Assembly (NCBI RefSeq): GCF_018861145.1
Contig: NZ_JAHKQT010000023.1
Span: forward strand, 124,001 to 188,000
DNA: 64,000 bases
DNA from: Poseidonibacter lekithochrous
GTDB lineage: Bacteria; Campylobacterota; Campylobacteria; Campylobacterales; Arcobacteraceae
Direction of reading: 5' to 3'
The notes below the pieces were generated by a model. The model saw nothing but the letters and a program-made list of their open reading frames with translations, had not been told where the DNA came from and did not search any database. Below are positions 45,622 to 54,794 of the stretch, piece by piece. Each line of letters begins with the position of its first letter. Position 1 is the first letter of the stretch. Position numbers and translations under genes: made by a program.

Positions 45622-47733
45622 CTAGAAATCATAAGATAGTGTTATACCAATTGTTCGAGGTGCTCCTGATTGTGTATAAAGTTCTGTTTCCCATCCATTA
45701 GCTGGGTTATTTCCAAAACTTCCAAATCCTCTTACTTCAGTTTTTTCATCAGTAATATTTCTTATCCAAAATGAAGTACTTAATCCTTTGTAAATATATT
45801 CTAAACTTGCATTTCCAATAGTTGATGACTTAGCTTTTTCATTATGTCTGTTTGAAAAGTAATAAGATGCTTTTCCTTCCATGTTTGCTTTAAATGTCCA
45901 ATCATCATTAATAAAGTAATTAAGACCAATATTATGTTGATATTCTGGTGATTGCGCTGGTGCTCTACCATTTACATCTGTAGCGTCTGGATTTGGATCT
46001 GTATATTCATCAAACTTAGATTTAAGTAAACCTAAAGAACCATAAACATATAAACTTTCTGTCATGTGATAAGATAACTGTGCTTCAAGCCCATAGTATG
46101 TACCTTTAGCAGCATTAGTGAAATATTCATCAAAGCTAGTATCTGGATCATTTGGATTTTGAACATATGAGCTTTTTACTTGTTGATCTTTTCTTTTTCC
46201 ATAAAAAAGATTTAAACGACTAAGAAGTGTATTATCAAGATAACTATTATTTGCACCAATATCAATATTCCAAAGTGTTTCTGTTTTAAACTCTCTTGCT
46301 GCATCAGGTATTTCACTACTTGAGTTTACACCACCTGGTTTATATCCTCGTGAAATACTCATATAATATAAATCAGTATTATTTATGGCATAATTTAATC
46401 CTATTCTTGCACCAAGAAGTGTTTCATCAGTAGAAATATCTGTTGCATTAGAATCTGTATAATCAGATTCAACATTTTCAACTCTTAAACCTGTAATAAA
46501 TGTAACTTTTTCATTTAAATGTGTATCCAGCTGTCCATAAATAGCTTTATTTTCTGTTTTATAATCACCATCATACTCAGTATTATATACTGTATTATTA
46601 TCATAAAGATCTACATAAAGTCTATTTCGTTCTAAAGATTCTTGATAGTTTTTATAATATGTACCAATAGTCCAATCTGTTGCACCGTTAAAAATACGAT
46701 TTGATTCATTTGATATAAGTCTTAAATCAAAATCAACGTACTCTTTATTTCTAATATACTCATCAGAACCTTTCCAGTTTTCCCCTGGATAATAATCTTC
46801 ATTAGCCCAATCTTCATCAAAACTGTAAGTCATATCACTATTTGAATAACTAAGTTTTGTTATAGCTTGAAATTTATTAAAATCATTAGTAGATTTAATT
46901 GCAAATGCATTTGTTTTTTGTGTATCTTTTCCTGGTTCATCAGCAAGTGATACTCTTGAATTATCAAAAGTAAATGCATCATAACCATTATCTACATTAG
47001 TATGGGAATAATTAAAATCAATTGTATGTTCATCAGATACAAGCCAACGAAGTTGTTGTTTTATAGAAAGTTCATCTATATTTTGTGTATCCTTACGATC
47101 CAAATATGAATTTTTCATATATCCATCACTTGTATTTTTATAAATAGAAAATCTTCCAAGTAGTTTATCTTCAAGTAGTGTCCCCCCAACTGCTACACCA
47201 ACTGCTTTAGTATTATAATCACCAACAGTTGCTTCAATATGGCCTTGTGTTTTTTTACTTGGTTCATTACTTTCTACAACAACCATTCCAGCCATTGCAT
47301 TTGCACCAAAAGTTGTACCTTGAGGACCTTTTAATACTTCTATTTGTTTTACATCAAACATACTCATGCCTAAAGTAGTATTTGAAGAATCAATACCATC
47401 TACAATAATTCCTACTGAAGGATTTACAGGTGTTTCAAATTGACTTCTCTCTCCTATTCCACGGATTTGTATATATTTTGCTTTTGATGCACCTGATGAA
47501 AAGTTTACGTTTGGTGTAGATGCTAAAGTTTCAACAAAAGATTTTGATGCTTTATCGTAAATTTCACCTTCACTTATTAGTGTTACACTATTACTTGTTT
47601 GTGATAGCTTTTTTTCTCTAAAATCAGCTCCAATAACAATAGGATCAAGTGTAATAGTTTCATCTGCAATCGCAGTTGTATTTAGTGTTGCATATGATGT
47701 AATCATCAATGCACTTAAAATGTTAGATTTCAT
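45622..47733 (-). CDS. TonB-dependent outer-membrane receptor under TPP riboswitch
   Basis: 703 residues. Signal peptide MKSNILSALMITSYATLNTTAIA, a TonB box near ETITLDPIVIG, a plug domain (about 40-160: YIQIRGIGERSQF, VDGIDSSNTT, IEVLKGPQGTTFGANAMAGMV) and a beta barrel ending in aromatic LSYDF. The TPP riboswitch in its leader means expression falls when thiamine pyrophosphate is plentiful, so the substrate is probably thiamine or a precursor. This resembles the predicted thiamine-regulated receptors known from comparative genomics. Energy would come from TonB/ExbBD at 24.4-26 kb. Confidence 0.9.
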   Translation of the reverse strand: MKSNILSALMITSYATLNTTAIADETITLDPIVIGADFREKKLSQTSNSVTLISEGEIYDKASKSFVETLASTPNVNFSSGASKAKYIQIRGIGERSQFETPVNPSVGIIVDGIDSSNTTLGMSMFDVKQIEVLKGPQGTTFGANAMAGMVVVESNEPSKKTQGHIEATVGDYNTKAVGVAVGGTLLEDKLLGRFSIYKNTSDGYMKNSYLDRKDTQNIDELSIKQQLRWLVSDEHTIDFNYSHTNVDNGYDAFTFDNSRVSLADEPGKDTQKTNAFAIKSTNDFNKFQAITKLSYSNSDMTYSFDEDWANEDYYPGENWKGSDEYIRNKEYVDFDLRLISNESNRIFNGATDWTIGTYYKNYQESLERNRLYVDLYDNNTVYNTEYDGDYKTENKAIYGQLDTHLNEKVTFITGLRVENVESDYTDSNATDISTDETLLGARIGLNYAINNTDLYYMSISRGYKPGGVNSSSEIPDAAREFKTETLWNIDIGANNSYLDNTLLSRLNLFYGKRKDQQVKSSYVQNPNDPDTSFDEYFTNAAKGTYYGLEAQLSYHMTESLYVYGSLGLLKSKFDEYTDPNPDATDVNGRAPAQSPEYQHNIGLNYFINDDWTFKANMEGKASYYFSNRHNEKAKSSTIGNASLEYIYKGLSTSFWIRNITDEKTEVRGFGSFGNNPANGWETELYTQSGAPRTIGITLSYDF

Positions 47734-48139: not shown

Positions 48140-49234
48140 ATGATGAAATACTTAAAAGATCTAGAAAAAATCATAAATATCAACTCTTATACTAAAAATA
48201 AAGAAGGCGTTGATAATGTTGGCCAAATTATGTCCACTTGGCTTAAAGAGTTAGGTTTTAATGAAACTACTTATAAAAGAGAAGAAATTGGAAATCATCA
48301 ATTATTTACTACAAAAAGAAAAGATAATCAAAAAAATATTTTGCTTTTAGGTCATAATGATACAGTATTTCCTGCTGGTACATTTGAAGGATTTACAGAA
48401 GATGAAACCTGGGTTTATGGACCTGGTGTTTGTGATATGAAAGGTGGAAATATTGTAGCATTACAATCACTAAGAAACATCTACAAGAATAATAATGAGA
48501 TAACAAATATTGATTTTTTATTAGTTTCAGATGAAGAAAGTGGAAGTGATGATTCAAAACATGTAACTTTAGATATAGCAAAAAATTACGATTATTGTTT
48601 TGTTTTTGAAGCAGCTGGAGCAAATTTAGAAGTTGTAACAGGAAGAAAAGGTGTTGGAACTTTTACTATAGCAATCCAAGGTGTTCCAGCACATGCTGGA
48701 ACTTCATATTTAAAGGGAATTGATGCGAATTTAGAAGCTTCATATAAGTTACAAGAACTATCAAAACTAACAAATTTAGATCTAGGGACAACTGTAAATG
48801 TTGGAAAAATTGAAGGTGGTATTGGTGCAAATACTATTTCTCCAAAATGTGAAATGTTATTAGAAATTAGATATACAACAAATAAGGAAAGAGATAGGCT
48901 ACTATCATCTTTAAATGAAATAACAAATACTTCTTATATCAAAGGTACTACCTCTAAACTTAGTGGTTTGATTCAAAGAGATGTAATGGAATCAAATGAG
49001 AGTCAAGCCATTCTTATAAAACAAATTGAAGAAATTACAGGAACTACAATTATTACTGAAAAAAGGGGTGGAGTTAGTGATGCTAATCATGTTTCTAGTT
49101 GTGGAGTAACAACAATTGATGGATTTGGTCCATTTGGTGATGGTGATCATACTAAAAAAGAAAGAGCTTCCAAGGAAAGCTTTGAGCTTAGAATTAATAT
49201 GATGACTAATATTTTAAGTTTTTTTCAAAAGTAA
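48140..49234 (+). CDS. M20-family metallopeptidase (glutamate carboxypeptidase-like)
   Basis: 364 residues starting MMK (ATG 48140 or 48143); no good ribosome site. Metal ligands of M20A/CPG2 enzymes are present: GHNDTVFP (His), YGPGVCDMKGG (bridging Asp), SDEESGS (Glu pair), GADAN-like GVSDANHVSS and DGDHTKKE (His). The dimerisation domain lies at about 170-280 (VPAHAGTSYLKGIDAN). No signal peptide, so cytoplasmic. Family members cleave C-terminal Glu or dipeptides. First gene of an operon with two ATP-grasp proteins and a second carboxypeptidase, where it may trim or recycle the product. Confidence 0.9.
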   Translation: MMKYLKDLEKIININSYTKNKEGVDNVGQIMSTWLKELGFNETTYKREEIGNHQLFTTKRKDNQKNILLLGHNDTVFPAGTFEGFTEDETWVYGPGVCDMKGGNIVALQSLRNIYKNNNEITNIDFLLVSDEESGSDDSKHVTLDIAKNYDYCFVFEAAGANLEVVTGRKGVGTFTIAIQGVPAHAGTSYLKGIDANLEASYKLQELSKLTNLDLGTTVNVGKIEGGIGANTISPKCEMLLEIRYTTNKERDRLLSSLNEITNTSYIKGTTSKLSGLIQRDVMESNESQAILIKQIEEITGTTIITEKRGGVSDANHVSSCGVTTIDGFGPFGDGDHTKKERASKESFELRINMMTNILSFFQK

Positions 49235-49257: not shown

Positions 49258-50160
49258 ATGAGTAAAAGAAAAATTGGTATGTGGTTATATCAAAATGGTG
49301 GCGGAGATGAAATCGAAAAAAAGATTATCACTAAATTAAATGAAAGAGATATTCAAGTAACTCCTGGTATTAATTTAAGAGATGCTGTTGCAAAAAATAA
49401 ACATATTATTTGGGAAGATAAAAAAATTGATAAACTAGATTTATTTTTCTCATATAATGCAGGTGAACAAACACAATATCAAGTTTATTTAGCTAAAGCA
49501 TTAAATCGTGTAATTCCTATGATAAATTCTTTTGATGCCTTTGAATTATCTGAAGATAAATTTCAAACTTCTTATTTATTAAGGCAAAATGATATTCAAA
49601 CTGCTGATTATAAATTGTGTCATAGAGATGATACACACCATTTGAAAACAATAATGAATAAATGGAATAAGATGGTATATAAACCAACTGATGGTTGGGG
49701 TGGTGTTGGACTTACAAAAATAGAGAATCAAGAAACACTTGATATGTTAATGCCATTTTTAAATCAAATGGATTTAAGATATTTTTATGTAGAGAAATTT
49801 ATTGATTATGATAATACAGATTATAGAGTTGATATAGTTGATGGTAAATTTGTAGGTTGTTATGGAAGAAAAGCTTCAGGAAGTGACTGGAGAACTAATG
49901 TTACTAGTGGTGGAAGTGTGTTTATGAGAGAACCTAATGATGAAGTAATCAATTTGGCACTAAAAGCAACTAAAGTAACAGGGTTAGATATATCTGGTGT
50001 TGATATTATCTATGATAGAAAAAAAGAAGAGTATGTTGTTCTTGAAGTCAATGGAATTCCAGCATTTGCTACACCAGAACAAGAGAAGATGGGATTAAAT
50101 TTTAATGATAAAAAAATTGATTTAATTGTAGAGTTAATAGATAGAAAAACAAAAAAATAA
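49258..50160 (+). CDS. RimK-like ATP-grasp ligase
   Basis: 300 residues; AAGGAG precedes the ATG. ATP-grasp fold: an N-terminal domain (about 1-95), the ATP-binding Lys in MVYKPTDGWGGVG (K142), VEKFID, R190 in DYRVDIVDG, RTNVTSGGSV, and the metal-binding D249 with E263-x-N265 in VVLEVNGIPAF. All catalytic positions look intact. Enzymes of this branch join a carboxylate to an amine via an acyl-phosphate, often adding Glu or other amino acids. The acceptor is unknown. It lies between the M20 peptidase (23 bp) and a second ATP-grasp gene (21 bp). Confidence 0.88.
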   Translation: MSKRKIGMWLYQNGGGDEIEKKIITKLNERDIQVTPGINLRDAVAKNKHIIWEDKKIDKLDLFFSYNAGEQTQYQVYLAKALNRVIPMINSFDAFELSEDKFQTSYLLRQNDIQTADYKLCHRDDTHHLKTIMNKWNKMVYKPTDGWGGVGLTKIENQETLDMLMPFLNQMDLRYFYVEKFIDYDNTDYRVDIVDGKFVGCYGRKASGSDWRTNVTSGGSVFMREPNDEVINLALKATKVTGLDISGVDIIYDRKKEEYVVLEVNGIPAFATPEQEKMGLNFNDKKIDLIVELIDRKTKK

Positions 50161-50181: not shown

Positions 50182-51696
50182 ATGAGTAAATTACCAAAAT
50201 TAGGCTTTTTATATATGGATTACGTTTTAAGGTTTTTTGATTATTCAAATTTCAAAGGATGGCCAAACAAAATAGAAACGGTTACATATCATTGGGGAAA
50301 AGATAAACAAAGATTTATCAATGAAGTTAGAGCTAAGAAGATTGATGTATTAATTGGAAATATTCCAGCAACTGCTTATGAAACATTTAGAGAAATTTCA
50401 AACGAACTTCCTCATGTAAGATTTGTTCCATCACTAGAAACTCAGTTCCCTAATAAATCAAAAGAGAATGTTACTTTATTTTGTGAAAAACATAATATTG
50501 CAATTCCTAAAACAAAGATTTTTCATCAAAATAAAGAAAAAGCTTATGATTATTTAAAAAATGAAGCAACATATCCTCAAATTATTAAAAAGTCTTATGG
50601 TCCATCTAATTATGGTGGATATTATGTTCATAAAGCTGATAATTTTAAAGAAGCTCATGCTTTATTAGAAAAAGAAAAATATGATCCTATTTATACTCAA
50701 AATGGAATTGATTTAAAATACTCTGGAGATTTAAGAGTAATGTTAATTGGGCATAAACCAGTTTGTGCCTTTTGGCGTTTCTCAGGTGAAGGAGAATGGA
50801 TTACAAACACTTCTCAAGGTGGAACAATGTCTTATGAAAATGTTCCTATGAATGCACTTGAACTTGCAGTAAAAGCTTCTAAAGCTGCAAAAGCTGAGTA
50901 TTGGGCTTGTGATATTGCAATAGATTCAAATGATGATAAACCATATATTTTAGAATGTGCAACTGCATTTGCTGCTTTCCCTTATATTAGAGATTGGATT
51001 TGTCAATATTTAATGTGGGACTTCTCAAATGGTAAGTTTAAAATGCCTCATGTTCCTTTATATTCATGGGTAGAATTAGGTAAAATTGATCCATCATTAT
51101 TAAGAACTATGAGACATATTGGATTTAGTAAATATAGTCCATCTTGTGATGGAGCATATTTTATAAATGAAAAAGAGAGTTCTTTCGATATGGAAAAAAC
51201 ACTATTAAATGATCCTAGTGATTATCCTGAAGAGTATTCTTATGATAAATTGCCTACATATGTACAACTTGAAGATATTCAAACAAAAGATATTCAAGAT
51301 GATGCATTAATAAATAAAATAAATTTCAATCTAGCATCGTTAACAGATTTAATGACACTTCATGGAATGGAAGATGAGTTAGCTATTGAGATTATGGACT
51401 TTAAAGAAAATAATACAATTACAGATGCAAGTGATTTATTAGAATTAGAATCAATAGATGAGCAAATGATTAAAACTTGGGATCAGAATGTTGCTGATAT
51501 GAGAGTTAACATTAATAATGCTGATGAAAATACTTTAAAGAAAATAAAAGGTATTGGTGCTAAACTAGCAAAAATCATTTTAGATTTTAAAGAAAAAATT
51601 GAGGAATTTAAAGATTTAGACCAATTAAAAGATATTGAAGGAATTGGTAAAAGTAAATTTACTCAACTAAAATCTAGACTAAAAATAGGAGATTAA
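50182..51696 (+). CDS. ATP-grasp protein fused to helix-hairpin-helix repeats
   Basis: 504 residues. ATP-grasp part (about 1-290): IIKKSYGPSNYGGYYV (K136/137), DLRVMLIGHKP (R185), ITNTSQGGTM and D244. The metal-binding E-x-N is replaced by E258-C-A260 in ILECATAFAAF, so the usual Asn is missing and activity may be reduced or need the partner ligase. After a linker come two helix-hairpin-helix units, one divergent (about 378-435) and one ComEA-like (about 442-502; VNINNADENTLKKIKGIGAK, LKDIEGIGKSKFTQL), normally DNA-binding or protein-binding. I know of no such fusion. It ends 3 bp before the M14 gene. Confidence 0.85.
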   Translation: MSKLPKLGFLYMDYVLRFFDYSNFKGWPNKIETVTYHWGKDKQRFINEVRAKKIDVLIGNIPATAYETFREISNELPHVRFVPSLETQFPNKSKENVTLFCEKHNIAIPKTKIFHQNKEKAYDYLKNEATYPQIIKKSYGPSNYGGYYVHKADNFKEAHALLEKEKYDPIYTQNGIDLKYSGDLRVMLIGHKPVCAFWRFSGEGEWITNTSQGGTMSYENVPMNALELAVKASKAAKAEYWACDIAIDSNDDKPYILECATAFAAFPYIRDWICQYLMWDFSNGKFKMPHVPLYSWVELGKIDPSLLRTMRHIGFSKYSPSCDGAYFINEKESSFDMEKTLLNDPSDYPEEYSYDKLPTYVQLEDIQTKDIQDDALINKINFNLASLTDLMTLHGMEDELAIEIMDFKENNTITDASDLLELESIDEQMIKTWDQNVADMRVNINNADENTLKKIKGIGAKLAKIILDFKEKIEEFKDLDQLKDIEGIGKSKFTQLKSRLKIGD

Positions 51697-51699
51697 TTT

Positions 51700-54285
51700 T
51701 TGAAACAACTTTATAGATCATATAATGAGTCTACTGATATTTTCAAAGATTTAGAAAATAGATACTCTAAGTATATTAAACTAGAGTCAATTGGGAAAAC
51801 TTGGGAAAAAAGAGATATTAATCTAATTACTATCTCTAAAGATATAAAAACGGCGCATACTAGACCTGCATTATTTTTTACAGGTACTATACATGCAAGA
51901 GAATGGGTAGGACATGAAGTAGCAATTGAATTTGCTAGATATGTATTAGAAAACTATGAAAATGATCCTATTATTCAATCATACTTAGAAAATACTACTA
52001 TTTATATGGTTCCTTGTGCTAATCCTGATGGATATGAATACTCAAAAAATCACTTTTCTTTTTGGAGAAAAAATAGACGTGTAAATGCAGATGGAACTTA
52101 TGGAGTTGATTTAAATAGAAACTTTCCAATAGGTTATGTGAAATCTTCAGTTCCTTCATCAAATGTATATGGAGGTCCAGAACCATTTTCGGAACCAGAA
52201 ACAAGAGCATTAAGAGATTTCGTTGAAGCTCATGATAATATTTCAATTGCTTTAGATTATCACTCACAAGGAAATGTATTTTTCCCTGCACATGATTTTA
52301 GGCATGAAGATACAATCGATACAACAGATATGAATACTTTATGTGCAAATATGGCAGAAGAAATAAAAAAAATATCAGGTAGAGAATATGGTATTCACCA
52401 AGGAAAGCCACCTACTAAACTTATTTCAGGTTCAGGTAGAGAGTTTTATCATTCAAGAGGAATTATTGCAAGTGTAGTTGAAGTTGGTACAAGAAATATT
52501 TCTGATTATATGGATGATATGGATGAGCACTTAAGGGAGCATATTCCTGCATTATTAGCAGCTGTAAAAGAAGTTCCAAATTATGATAAAAACAATAAGA
52601 TAAAAAGAGTTGATTCTTTTGAAATTACAGAAATTGGCTCAAATCATGCAAATTTAAAATGGGAATATTCAGGTGAAAAAGGTGTATTCTTTGAAATTTA
52701 TAGAAGCTTGAAAAACAAGTCATTTTGTAACAGCTCTAATTTAATTGGTAGCACACAAAATTTAGAATTTAGTGATATTAATTTACAAAGTAATAAAGAT
52801 TATTTCTATAATATTAGAGCAGTTAGCAAAAAAACTAATCAAAAATCACCATTTTATCCTCAAATTGCACTTAGAACTGATACAGAATATGATGAGTTCT
52901 CAAGAACATATTATGCAGCATCTAAAGAGACGGGATATGTAGCTGAAAATATAAATGACAATGCAAAACACTTTGGAATTAACTCTTTATTTGTTGGAGT
53001 TGATGAAAATAAGGGTATTTCATACGCAATTGTTACAATTAATGTAGCTTCTCTTCCAGAAGATGCAATTATTAAATCTGCAAGTGTAAATCTTTATCCT
53101 ATTAATAGAGTTTCTACAACTATTGAAAAATATGGTGAATGGAATGTAGGAATTGTTGATCAAGAAGCAATGGGTGATATTACAGATTTTGATGATGTTG
53201 ATAATATGAAAATATTACAATATATTGGAAGACCTACATCATCAGATAAACTTACACAAGGTATATGGAGAACATGGGAACTTTCTGGAATTGAATGTGA
53301 ATGTTTACAAGAAGTTGCTAAAAATGGAAAAGTTGTTTTAAGAGTAGAAGGCCCTAAAGAGTTAATTATTGGTAGAACAAGACAAATGATGCAATGGGAT
53401 ATTGGATATGGAAGATTTGGTTATGGATTACCTTATAGACCAAGACTTGAACTTACATACACAATAAAACCAACAGTTACTACTTTATATCCAAAATCAT
53501 TATGTACCTTGAGTAAAGATGGAATTAAACCAGATGAATTAATTTCGGGTTATGATGATGAAGGAAGTAAAATTTATTCTTCTTTTGAATTTAATATTTC
53601 ATCGCTACCACCATATAATGAAACTTTTATAACACGAGCTTACTTTGAATTAAATTCAACAAAAATCTATATTAAAGACGATATTAGATTCCATTTAGAA
53701 TTTGTTGATGAAAATATTGATAAAGATTATGAAGGGATTGTAAATAGAGAGATTATTCAAAATATTGGTTATGATGTAAGTGCAAATGAACTTAAAAATA
53801 ATCAAACACAATATTTTGCTTTTGACACTTTTTCAGAAATTACTTTAAATGAAAAGCTTAAAAATAAAAGTGATGTTGCATTTGTTTTAAGACCAACTTC
53901 CTCTAAAAAAGCTAATAGAAGTAAAACTGTATCTTGGGAAACAAAAAATCAATCATTAAGTCCTAAACTTATAATTGAGCATATTCCTAAAAGAAGAGAA
54001 GCATTGCCACAAGTTGAGAATGCACAATTAATTACAGAAAATGGAAAGATTAAAATCACTTGGACAAATCCTAAACATAGGGATTTAAAAGGTGTTAAAG
54101 TTATGAAGAATGCATATAGAGAACCCTACTCTACTCATGATGGTCAAAAACTTTTTGCTGGAATGGATGACTATACTTTTGATGATTTTGGTGCTTTAGA
54201 TATTGATAAGTATTATGCTATTTTTACTTATGATGAAGTTCCAAATTATTCTAAACCTGTAATATTAAAATATACAGCAAAATAG
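51700..54285 (+). CDS. M14 carboxypeptidase with Fn3-like and DNRLRE-like extensions
   Basis: 861 residues from a TTG start with AGGAG upstream. The M14 domain (1-290) is complete: zinc ligands H65 and E68 in GTIHAREW and H188 in LDYHSQG, substrate-binding N139-R140 in DLNRNF, Y250 in EFYHSRG and catalytic E261 in VVEVGTRN. It is followed by an Fn3-like domain (about 300-385), two beta-rich segments resembling DNRLRE repeats (about 390-585 and 586-755) and a last Fn3-like domain (about 760-861). These are usually extracellular, yet no signal peptide is visible. It removes C-terminal residues; the substrate may be the ligase product. Confidence 0.88.
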   Translation: MKQLYRSYNESTDIFKDLENRYSKYIKLESIGKTWEKRDINLITISKDIKTAHTRPALFFTGTIHAREWVGHEVAIEFARYVLENYENDPIIQSYLENTTIYMVPCANPDGYEYSKNHFSFWRKNRRVNADGTYGVDLNRNFPIGYVKSSVPSSNVYGGPEPFSEPETRALRDFVEAHDNISIALDYHSQGNVFFPAHDFRHEDTIDTTDMNTLCANMAEEIKKISGREYGIHQGKPPTKLISGSGREFYHSRGIIASVVEVGTRNISDYMDDMDEHLREHIPALLAAVKEVPNYDKNNKIKRVDSFEITEIGSNHANLKWEYSGEKGVFFEIYRSLKNKSFCNSSNLIGSTQNLEFSDINLQSNKDYFYNIRAVSKKTNQKSPFYPQIALRTDTEYDEFSRTYYAASKETGYVAENINDNAKHFGINSLFVGVDENKGISYAIVTINVASLPEDAIIKSASVNLYPINRVSTTIEKYGEWNVGIVDQEAMGDITDFDDVDNMKILQYIGRPTSSDKLTQGIWRTWELSGIECECLQEVAKNGKVVLRVEGPKELIIGRTRQMMQWDIGYGRFGYGLPYRPRLELTYTIKPTVTTLYPKSLCTLSKDGIKPDELISGYDDEGSKIYSSFEFNISSLPPYNETFITRAYFELNSTKIYIKDDIRFHLEFVDENIDKDYEGIVNREIIQNIGYDVSANELKNNQTQYFAFDTFSEITLNEKLKNKSDVAFVLRPTSSKKANRSKTVSWETKNQSLSPKLIIEHIPKRREALPQVENAQLITENGKIKITWTNPKHRDLKGVKVMKNAYREPYSTHDGQKLFAGMDDYTFDDFGALDIDKYYAIFTYDEVPNYSKPVILKYTAK

Positions 54286-54293
54286 GAAAATTT

Positions 54294-54794
54294 ATGATTT
54301 TAAAATTTAAAGAACATTATCCACAAATTAACCCAAGCGCTTGGATAGCTCCAAGTGCCGATGTTATTGGACAAGTTACTATAGGTGAGAATTCATCTGT
54401 ATGGTTCCAGTGTGTATTAAGATCTGATGTTAATAAAATTATAATTGGAAAAAATACTAATATACAAGATTTATCAATGATTCATACAGATGTGGATTCA
54501 CAGACAATTATTGGAGATAATGTAACAATTGGACATAAAGTTATGCTTCATGGCTGTAAAATTGAAGATAATTGCTTAATTGGTATGAGTGCAACAATTT
54601 TGGACAATGCAGTTATTGGGCAAGGTTCAATCGTAGGAGCTAATTCACTTGTAACTTCGGGAAAAGTATTTCCTCCTAATTCTTTGATTATGGGAAGTCC
54701 TGCAAAGGTTGTAAAACAACTAACGCATGAAGATGAGCAAGGCTTAATTAATCATGCTGCTCATTATGTGGATTATAAAAACGATTATTCTTAA
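54294..54794 (+). CDS. gamma-carbonic-anhydrase-like hexapeptide-repeat protein
   Basis: 166 residues of left-handed beta-helix repeats (VIGQVTIGENSSVWFQCVLRSD, IIGDNVTIGHKVMLHGCKIEDN). The zinc histidines of gamma-class carbonic anhydrases are in place (SMIHTD, then GHKVMLHG). Homologues such as YrdA/CaiE act as carbonic anhydrases or uncharacterised trimers. Nine bases from the M14 stop, with AGGAAA before its ATG, it is likely part of that operon. A strong terminator follows. Confidence 0.9.
   Translation: MILKFKEHYPQINPSAWIAPSADVIGQVTIGENSSVWFQCVLRSDVNKIIIGKNTNIQDLSMIHTDVDSQTIIGDNVTIGHKVMLHGCKIEDNCLIGMSATILDNAVIGQGSIVGANSLVTSGKVFPPNSLIMGSPAKVVKQLTHEDEQGLINHAAHYVDYKNDYS

Follow-up and report, generated by a model that had tools for sequence, protein, structure and literature searches.

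This locus raises the question of whether an ATP-grasp protein that lacks one of its metal-binding residues and carries a docking-type tail can still work as an enzyme. The protein, here called AG2, is encoded on the forward strand at 50182..51696 (504 aa, ATG start) of the window, a stretch of 64,000 nucleotides from Poseidonibacter lekithochrous, and consists of a RimK-like ATP-grasp with a C-terminal helix-hairpin-helix (HhH) tail. Its upstream neighbour AG1 (49258..50160, +) is a 300-aa RimK/LysX/MptN-like ATP-grasp ligase (Pfam RimK 74 bits, with MptN and rimK_fam as the best NCBIfam matches) in which the E263-V-N265 motif is intact, E263 and N265 being conserved among homologues. An earlier note took the missing Asn and the tail of AG2 together as the marks of a scaffold that brings an acceptor to AG1. 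Judged from its sequence, AG2 looks like a working enzyme rather than a dead scaffold.

By sequence and modelled structure, AG2 can be classed as a RimK/LysX-type ATP-grasp. The Pfam RimK domain (PF08443) is matched with 57.5 bits (cut-off 21) which, together with the RimK fold, places the protein in the RimK-like ATP-grasp superfamily. In the AlphaFold model of full-length AG2 (mean pLDDT 76.5), residues 5-284 superpose on RimK (7qyr; Z 20.6, rmsd 3.2, 264 residues) and on ArgX (3vpb; Z 20.4, rmsd 3.2, 261 residues), and the N-terminal domain and ATP-grasp core (aa 1-290; 50182..51051, +) are delimited by this superposition and by a dN/dS of 0.03. The closest folds, RimK and ArgX/LysX, are those of glutamate or aminoadipate ligases; LysX/ArgX rank among the top structural matches and have a TN-x-x-x-GG motif similar to that of AG2. 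The protein stays below the cut-offs for RimK alpha-L-glutamate ligases (TIGR00768, 65.8 vs 143.4 bits; NF007764, 19.1 vs 331 bits), and the RimK metal triad of Asp, Glu and Asn is incomplete, with D244 and E258 kept and A260 in place of the Asn in all AG2 proteins.

The replacement of the Asn, as the earlier note had claimed, is borne out by a profile-profile alignment that sets E258-C-A260 (50953..50961, +), in which the metal-site Glu is retained, against E263-V-N265 of AG1. The claim that the other catalytic positions persist holds as well, with K136, D183, R185, R199, D244 and E258 unchanged across 68 aligned homologues. Every one of the 106 AG2 proteins carries E-C-A, and the nearest outside relatives have E-F-N, which implies that the Asn disappeared along the stem of AG2 and that the change is family-wide and fixed, not a local decay. 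Distant AG2-like proteins with E-F-N (L097-L101) have about 30% identity across the ATP-grasp region.

The loss of this Asn is compatible with catalysis because PurK, an active ATP-grasp enzyme, has E-x-A at the same place, though it is unusual within the RimK branch. PurK (N5-CAIR synthetase) of the same genome reads NEIAPRP, thus E-I-A, at the AG2 motif site, so that the two proteins agree at the second metal ligand, and PurK structures are among those which superpose on the AG2 model; PurK differs in its chemistry and is only distantly related in sequence. PurT has E-V-S. The ATP-grasp core (aa 1-290) is under the strongest purifying selection in the protein, with a dN/dS of 0.030-0.038, whereas the tail units reach 0.09-0.16 (each against three close relatives). 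The proposal of an inactive scaffold is weakened by the invariance of the remaining ATP, metal and acyl-phosphate residues, by this constraint on the core and by the E-I-A of PurK. The active site is not degenerate in the manner expected of a pseudoenzyme, as the Asn alone has changed, and the general caution is that one missing metal ligand is insufficient to call ATP-grasp proteins dead.

The tail was described in the earlier note as one divergent and one clear ComEA-like HhH unit, and the model agrees. Modelled alone (pLDDT 92.3), it forms two tandem ComEA-type units, which are preceded by an acidic linker of low confidence (aa 336-375, net charge -9; 51187..51306, +). The first, divergent and strongly acidic unit (aa ~376-436, net -11; 51307..51489, +) superposes on 2duy (Z 10.2, rmsd 1.6, 62 residues) and the second, canonical and weakly basic one (aa 437-504, net +3; 51490..51693, +) on ComEA (8dss; Z 11.2, rmsd 1.4, 64 residues); Pfam HHH_3 matches the protein in two stretches, at 85.6 bits where 27 are required. 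Both units thus qualify as ComEA-type HhH domains by superposition within 1.4-1.6 Å, while the whole protein is below the cut-off of the comE family (TIGR01259, 61.6 vs 152.35 bits) and differs from ComEA in having no membrane anchor, in the fusion to a ligase and in its acidic first unit. HhH folds of this kind are seen both in DNA-binding proteins and in the protein-docking PsbU and GspK/XcpX, and therefore the fold alone leaves the ligand undecided. On the basis of the modelled superposition the tail looks like a docking module, in line with the earlier proposal.

The absence of the Asn and the presence of the tail had been treated as parts of one adaptation, and this is contradicted by three gammaproteobacterial homologues of 322, 333 and 358 aa (L095, L094 and L093), which have E-C-A and no HhH unit and adjoin the M20 and AG1 genes of the operon described below, in two of three cases also the M14 gene (within the stretch covered). 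In a quick tree rooted on the E-F-N relatives this tail-less branch is the deepest; because its members already have E-C-A, the Asn was lost before the tail and independently of it. The earlier note had named tail-less homologues with full function as a refuting case: the tail-less homologues exist, and it is their operon context that suggests retained function. Other AG2 clades have the first unit only or a shorter, different tail, and AG2 of Cycloclasticus (L079:7986-9632) carries a DUF1643 domain (PF07799, E=1e-38) instead of the HhH units. As the locus search covered the best 80 matches to six peptide patterns, the proportions of the tail types are not unbiased. The HhH tail is a late, modular and clade-specific addition, and is neither the cause nor the consequence of the Asn change.

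AG1 and AG2 are the middle genes of a cassette in the order M20 - AG1 - AG2 - M14, arranged head to tail and separated by 23, 21 and 3 bases. A gamma-carbonic-anhydrase-like hexapeptide protein (54294..54794, +), which is a frequent downstream neighbour (in 19 related loci), is probably in the same transcript. Among the 90 related loci whose flanks extend far enough either way, at least 69 have all four genes together and 11 have AG2 alone; three of the remaining loci are miscounted, as raw ORFs overlap. The cassette is present mostly in Campylobacterota and also in Desulfuromonadales and Gammaproteobacteria, and the E. coli genomes searched gave no match. That AG2 is a dedicated partner of AG1, as the earlier note supposed, is upheld by 397 Campylobacterota genomes, where both genes occur in 51, AG2 only in 2 (in one of these as a relic with three stops), AG1 only in 2 and neither in 342, although shared ancestry inflates this co-occurrence. 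In the five genomes checked in which AG2 is detached, AG1 and M14 persist at other sites of the genome. A relic of AG2 with three stop codons (G037:C1:157161-157463) in a genome that gave no AG1 match suggests that the whole system was lost there. Nothing on this gene combination was found in the open-licence literature; the cassette is uncharacterised so far.

The two outer genes encode carboxypeptidases. The first (48140..49234, +; 364 aa) is an M20-family zinc carboxypeptidase with the Pfam domains M20 and M20_dimer and with catalytic residues that are invariant among homologues; its closest solved relative is carboxypeptidase G2 (1cg2; PDB phmmer E=9e-31), a glutamate carboxypeptidase, and it stays below the cut-off of the glutamate carboxypeptidase family PRK06133 of NCBIfam (182.6 vs 349 bits). 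The second (51700..54285, +; 861 aa, TTG start) is an M14 carboxypeptidase (Pfam M14 212 bits) with the catalytic residues H65, E68, H188 and E261 conserved in 89 aligned sequences and a sequence nearest to the CPA/CPB/CPO branch. Its catalytic domain is followed by FN3 and DNRLRE regions of the kind usual in exported proteins, yet the protein has no hydrophobic leader or obvious signal peptide. Its Arg247 (codon 52438..52440, +) corresponds in phmmer alignments to CPA4 and CPA1 to Ile255 of carboxypeptidase A, the S1' specificity residue, and 87 of the 88 homologues keep the Arg. Position 255 sets the specificity and Arg255 gives CPO its preference for acidic C-termini (PMC9925722). With the HxxE...H...E arrangement and an Arg at this position, the M14 protein has the hallmarks of a CPO-like enzyme, and its sequence predicts substrates with an acidic C-terminus. 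Arg247, the carboxypeptidase-G2-like M20 and the ligases of glutamate/aminoadipate type are three leads to glutamate, none of which is proof.

In known systems, S6 receives Glu from RimK and the deglutamylase RimB removes it again (PMC11957791, PMC12239564). The genome under study has a canonical RimK operon of its own at another site (L002:306-2699, contig C41), which encodes a retropepsin-like protease, RimK with EVN and an AstE/AspA-like M14 protein; the target of the cassette is therefore probably not S6. The RimK-RimB and rlo operons resemble the cassette in the ATP-grasp fold and in encoding a ligase with reversing peptidases. They differ in that the cassette has two ligases, one of which, AG2, has E-C-A instead of E-x-N as well as the HhH tail, and in that its candidate erasers are metallocarboxypeptidases (M14 and M20) and not a retropepsin.

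The best reading, to which we give slightly less than an even chance, is that the cassette is a second, non-ribosomal glutamyl writer/eraser system beside the canonical RimK operon. It would entail, and this is put just as tentatively, that AG2 is catalytically competent and works with AG1 as a two-enzyme writer, with M14 and M20 trimming the added residues. AG1 and AG2, with some division of labour, would use ATP to extend the end or a side chain of a candidate cytoplasmic acceptor with amino acids, glutamate being the likeliest; M14, with the Arg in its S1' pocket, and the carboxypeptidase-G2-like M20 might remove them, which would make the tagging reversible, and the HhH tail may act as a docking module that binds the acceptor or a partner. 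Against this, the Asn serves to bind metal in RimK and LysX, the nearest relatives, PurK being a more distant ATP-grasp, and the invariance of the other residues could also come from a binding-only role. The Arg at position 255 predicts Glu specificity without proving it; a bacterial M14 enzyme with a basic S1' residue had little deglutamylase activity in vitro, barely acting on a Glu test substrate (PMC3940198). Furthermore, none of the cassette genes encodes an acceptor protein.

A bolder form of the same reading, which we regard as doubtful and which is drawn by analogy, is a reversible protein tagging unrelated to S6, in which two non-redundant ligases would build an acidic amino-acid tail on a candidate cytoplasmic protein and two cytoplasmic carboxypeptidases would erase it, with exchangeable docking tails on AG2; it would be the equivalent in bacteria of the glutamylation code of tubulin. 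The proposed logic of an ATP-dependent glutamyl writer and an acidic-specific M14 eraser is that of the TTLL glutamylases and cytosolic carboxypeptidases; the analogy goes no further, as the ligases are RimK-like and not TTL-like, the M14 is nearest to CPA/CPB/CPO and there is no tubulin. Bacterial reversible C-terminal glutamylation is, to our knowledge, known mainly for ribosomal protein S6, and a cassette of two ligases and two carboxypeptidases in Campylobacterota and in some Pseudomonadota and Desulfuromonadales would offer a new place in which to search for the regulated tagging of proteins or peptides.

Rather than tagging a protein, AG1 and AG2 could assemble a free small peptide or osmolyte-like compound by making two peptide bonds in succession, similar to the two ligases of glutathione, and M20 and M14 would then mature or recycle the product. 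Two different ligases in one operon, the nearness of M20 to a folate-type glutamate carboxypeptidase and the many carriers in named marine genera (habitat being inferred) speak for this route. The nearest folds, however, target protein tails or carrier proteins, the tail is of a protein-docking type, and no transporter or further biosynthetic gene was found to be conserved in the cassette across the related loci compared, so that this explanation seems possible without being probable.

The scaffold proposal, in which AG2 is a pseudo-ligase whose HhH tail holds the acceptor and presents it to AG1 as the sole active ligase, we consider unlikely. It would fit the family-wide absence of the Asn, the near-obligate pairing with AG1 and the docking-type folds of the tail, but it has to contend with the invariance of every other catalytic residue in the most constrained part of the protein and with PurK, a working enzyme with E-x-A. 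In addition, the deep-branching members keep the operon without any tail, the first HhH unit is acidic, and one 99%-complete draft genome contains AG2 and M14 with no match to AG1.

Less likely still is a link to nucleic acids, in which the basic second HhH unit would bind DNA or RNA and AG2 would modify a protein bound there. ComEA is closest to this unit, and in Hydrogenimonas-type members it is strongly basic (net +8 to +12), but in Desulfuromusa it is near neutral, and the better conserved first unit, which has more invariant positions than the second, is acidic in nearly all members with both units. Given this acidity, and with several clades lacking the tail altogether, nucleic-acid binding was not adopted as the main function of the tail.

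Very improbable, finally, is a LysW-type pathway in which AG1 and AG2 would load an amino-group carrier protein, from which M20 would free the product: the closest folds include LysX/ArgX, and LysK, like the M20 partner here, is an M20 enzyme, but the cassette lacks the kinase, reductase and transaminase genes (LysZ, LysY and LysJ), and LysW was rejected as the acceptor since none scored above the curated cut-off in the genome under study (G000) and six other cassette-bearing genomes, in which controls were detected.

Several other candidates were set aside. EF-P as a target was suggested by its position upstream of AG2 in 10 of 12 detached loci, with dnaE downstream in 8; this adjacency is apparently limited to Sulfurimonas-type genomes and is thus explained by shared ancestry of gene order (the loci with AG2 directly after EF-P are L073, L075, L081, L083, L084, L111, L113, L115, L116 and L121). 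Clusters of the rpsP-rimM-trmD-rplS type lie near the cassette in L026, L027, L047 and 16 similar loci, and a ribosome link through these neighbours was rejected as confined to one lineage. The conserved C-terminal KIGE of AG2 was dismissed as a self-acceptor, being confined to an Arcobacteraceae-type clade. A phage origin had one weak phage match, and the single match in a plasmid collection, a Photobacterium replicon of 2.1 Mb, carries this cassette too. A TonB-dependent receptor lies upstream on the opposite strand (45622-47733 of the window), and a close relative of it was noticed beside the cassette in L006 and L007 only. Second copies of AG1 are found near the cassette at L012:12226-13592, L022:4800-5762 and L048:7692-8618, and the one in L012 is adjoined by a separate HhH protein of 145 aa.
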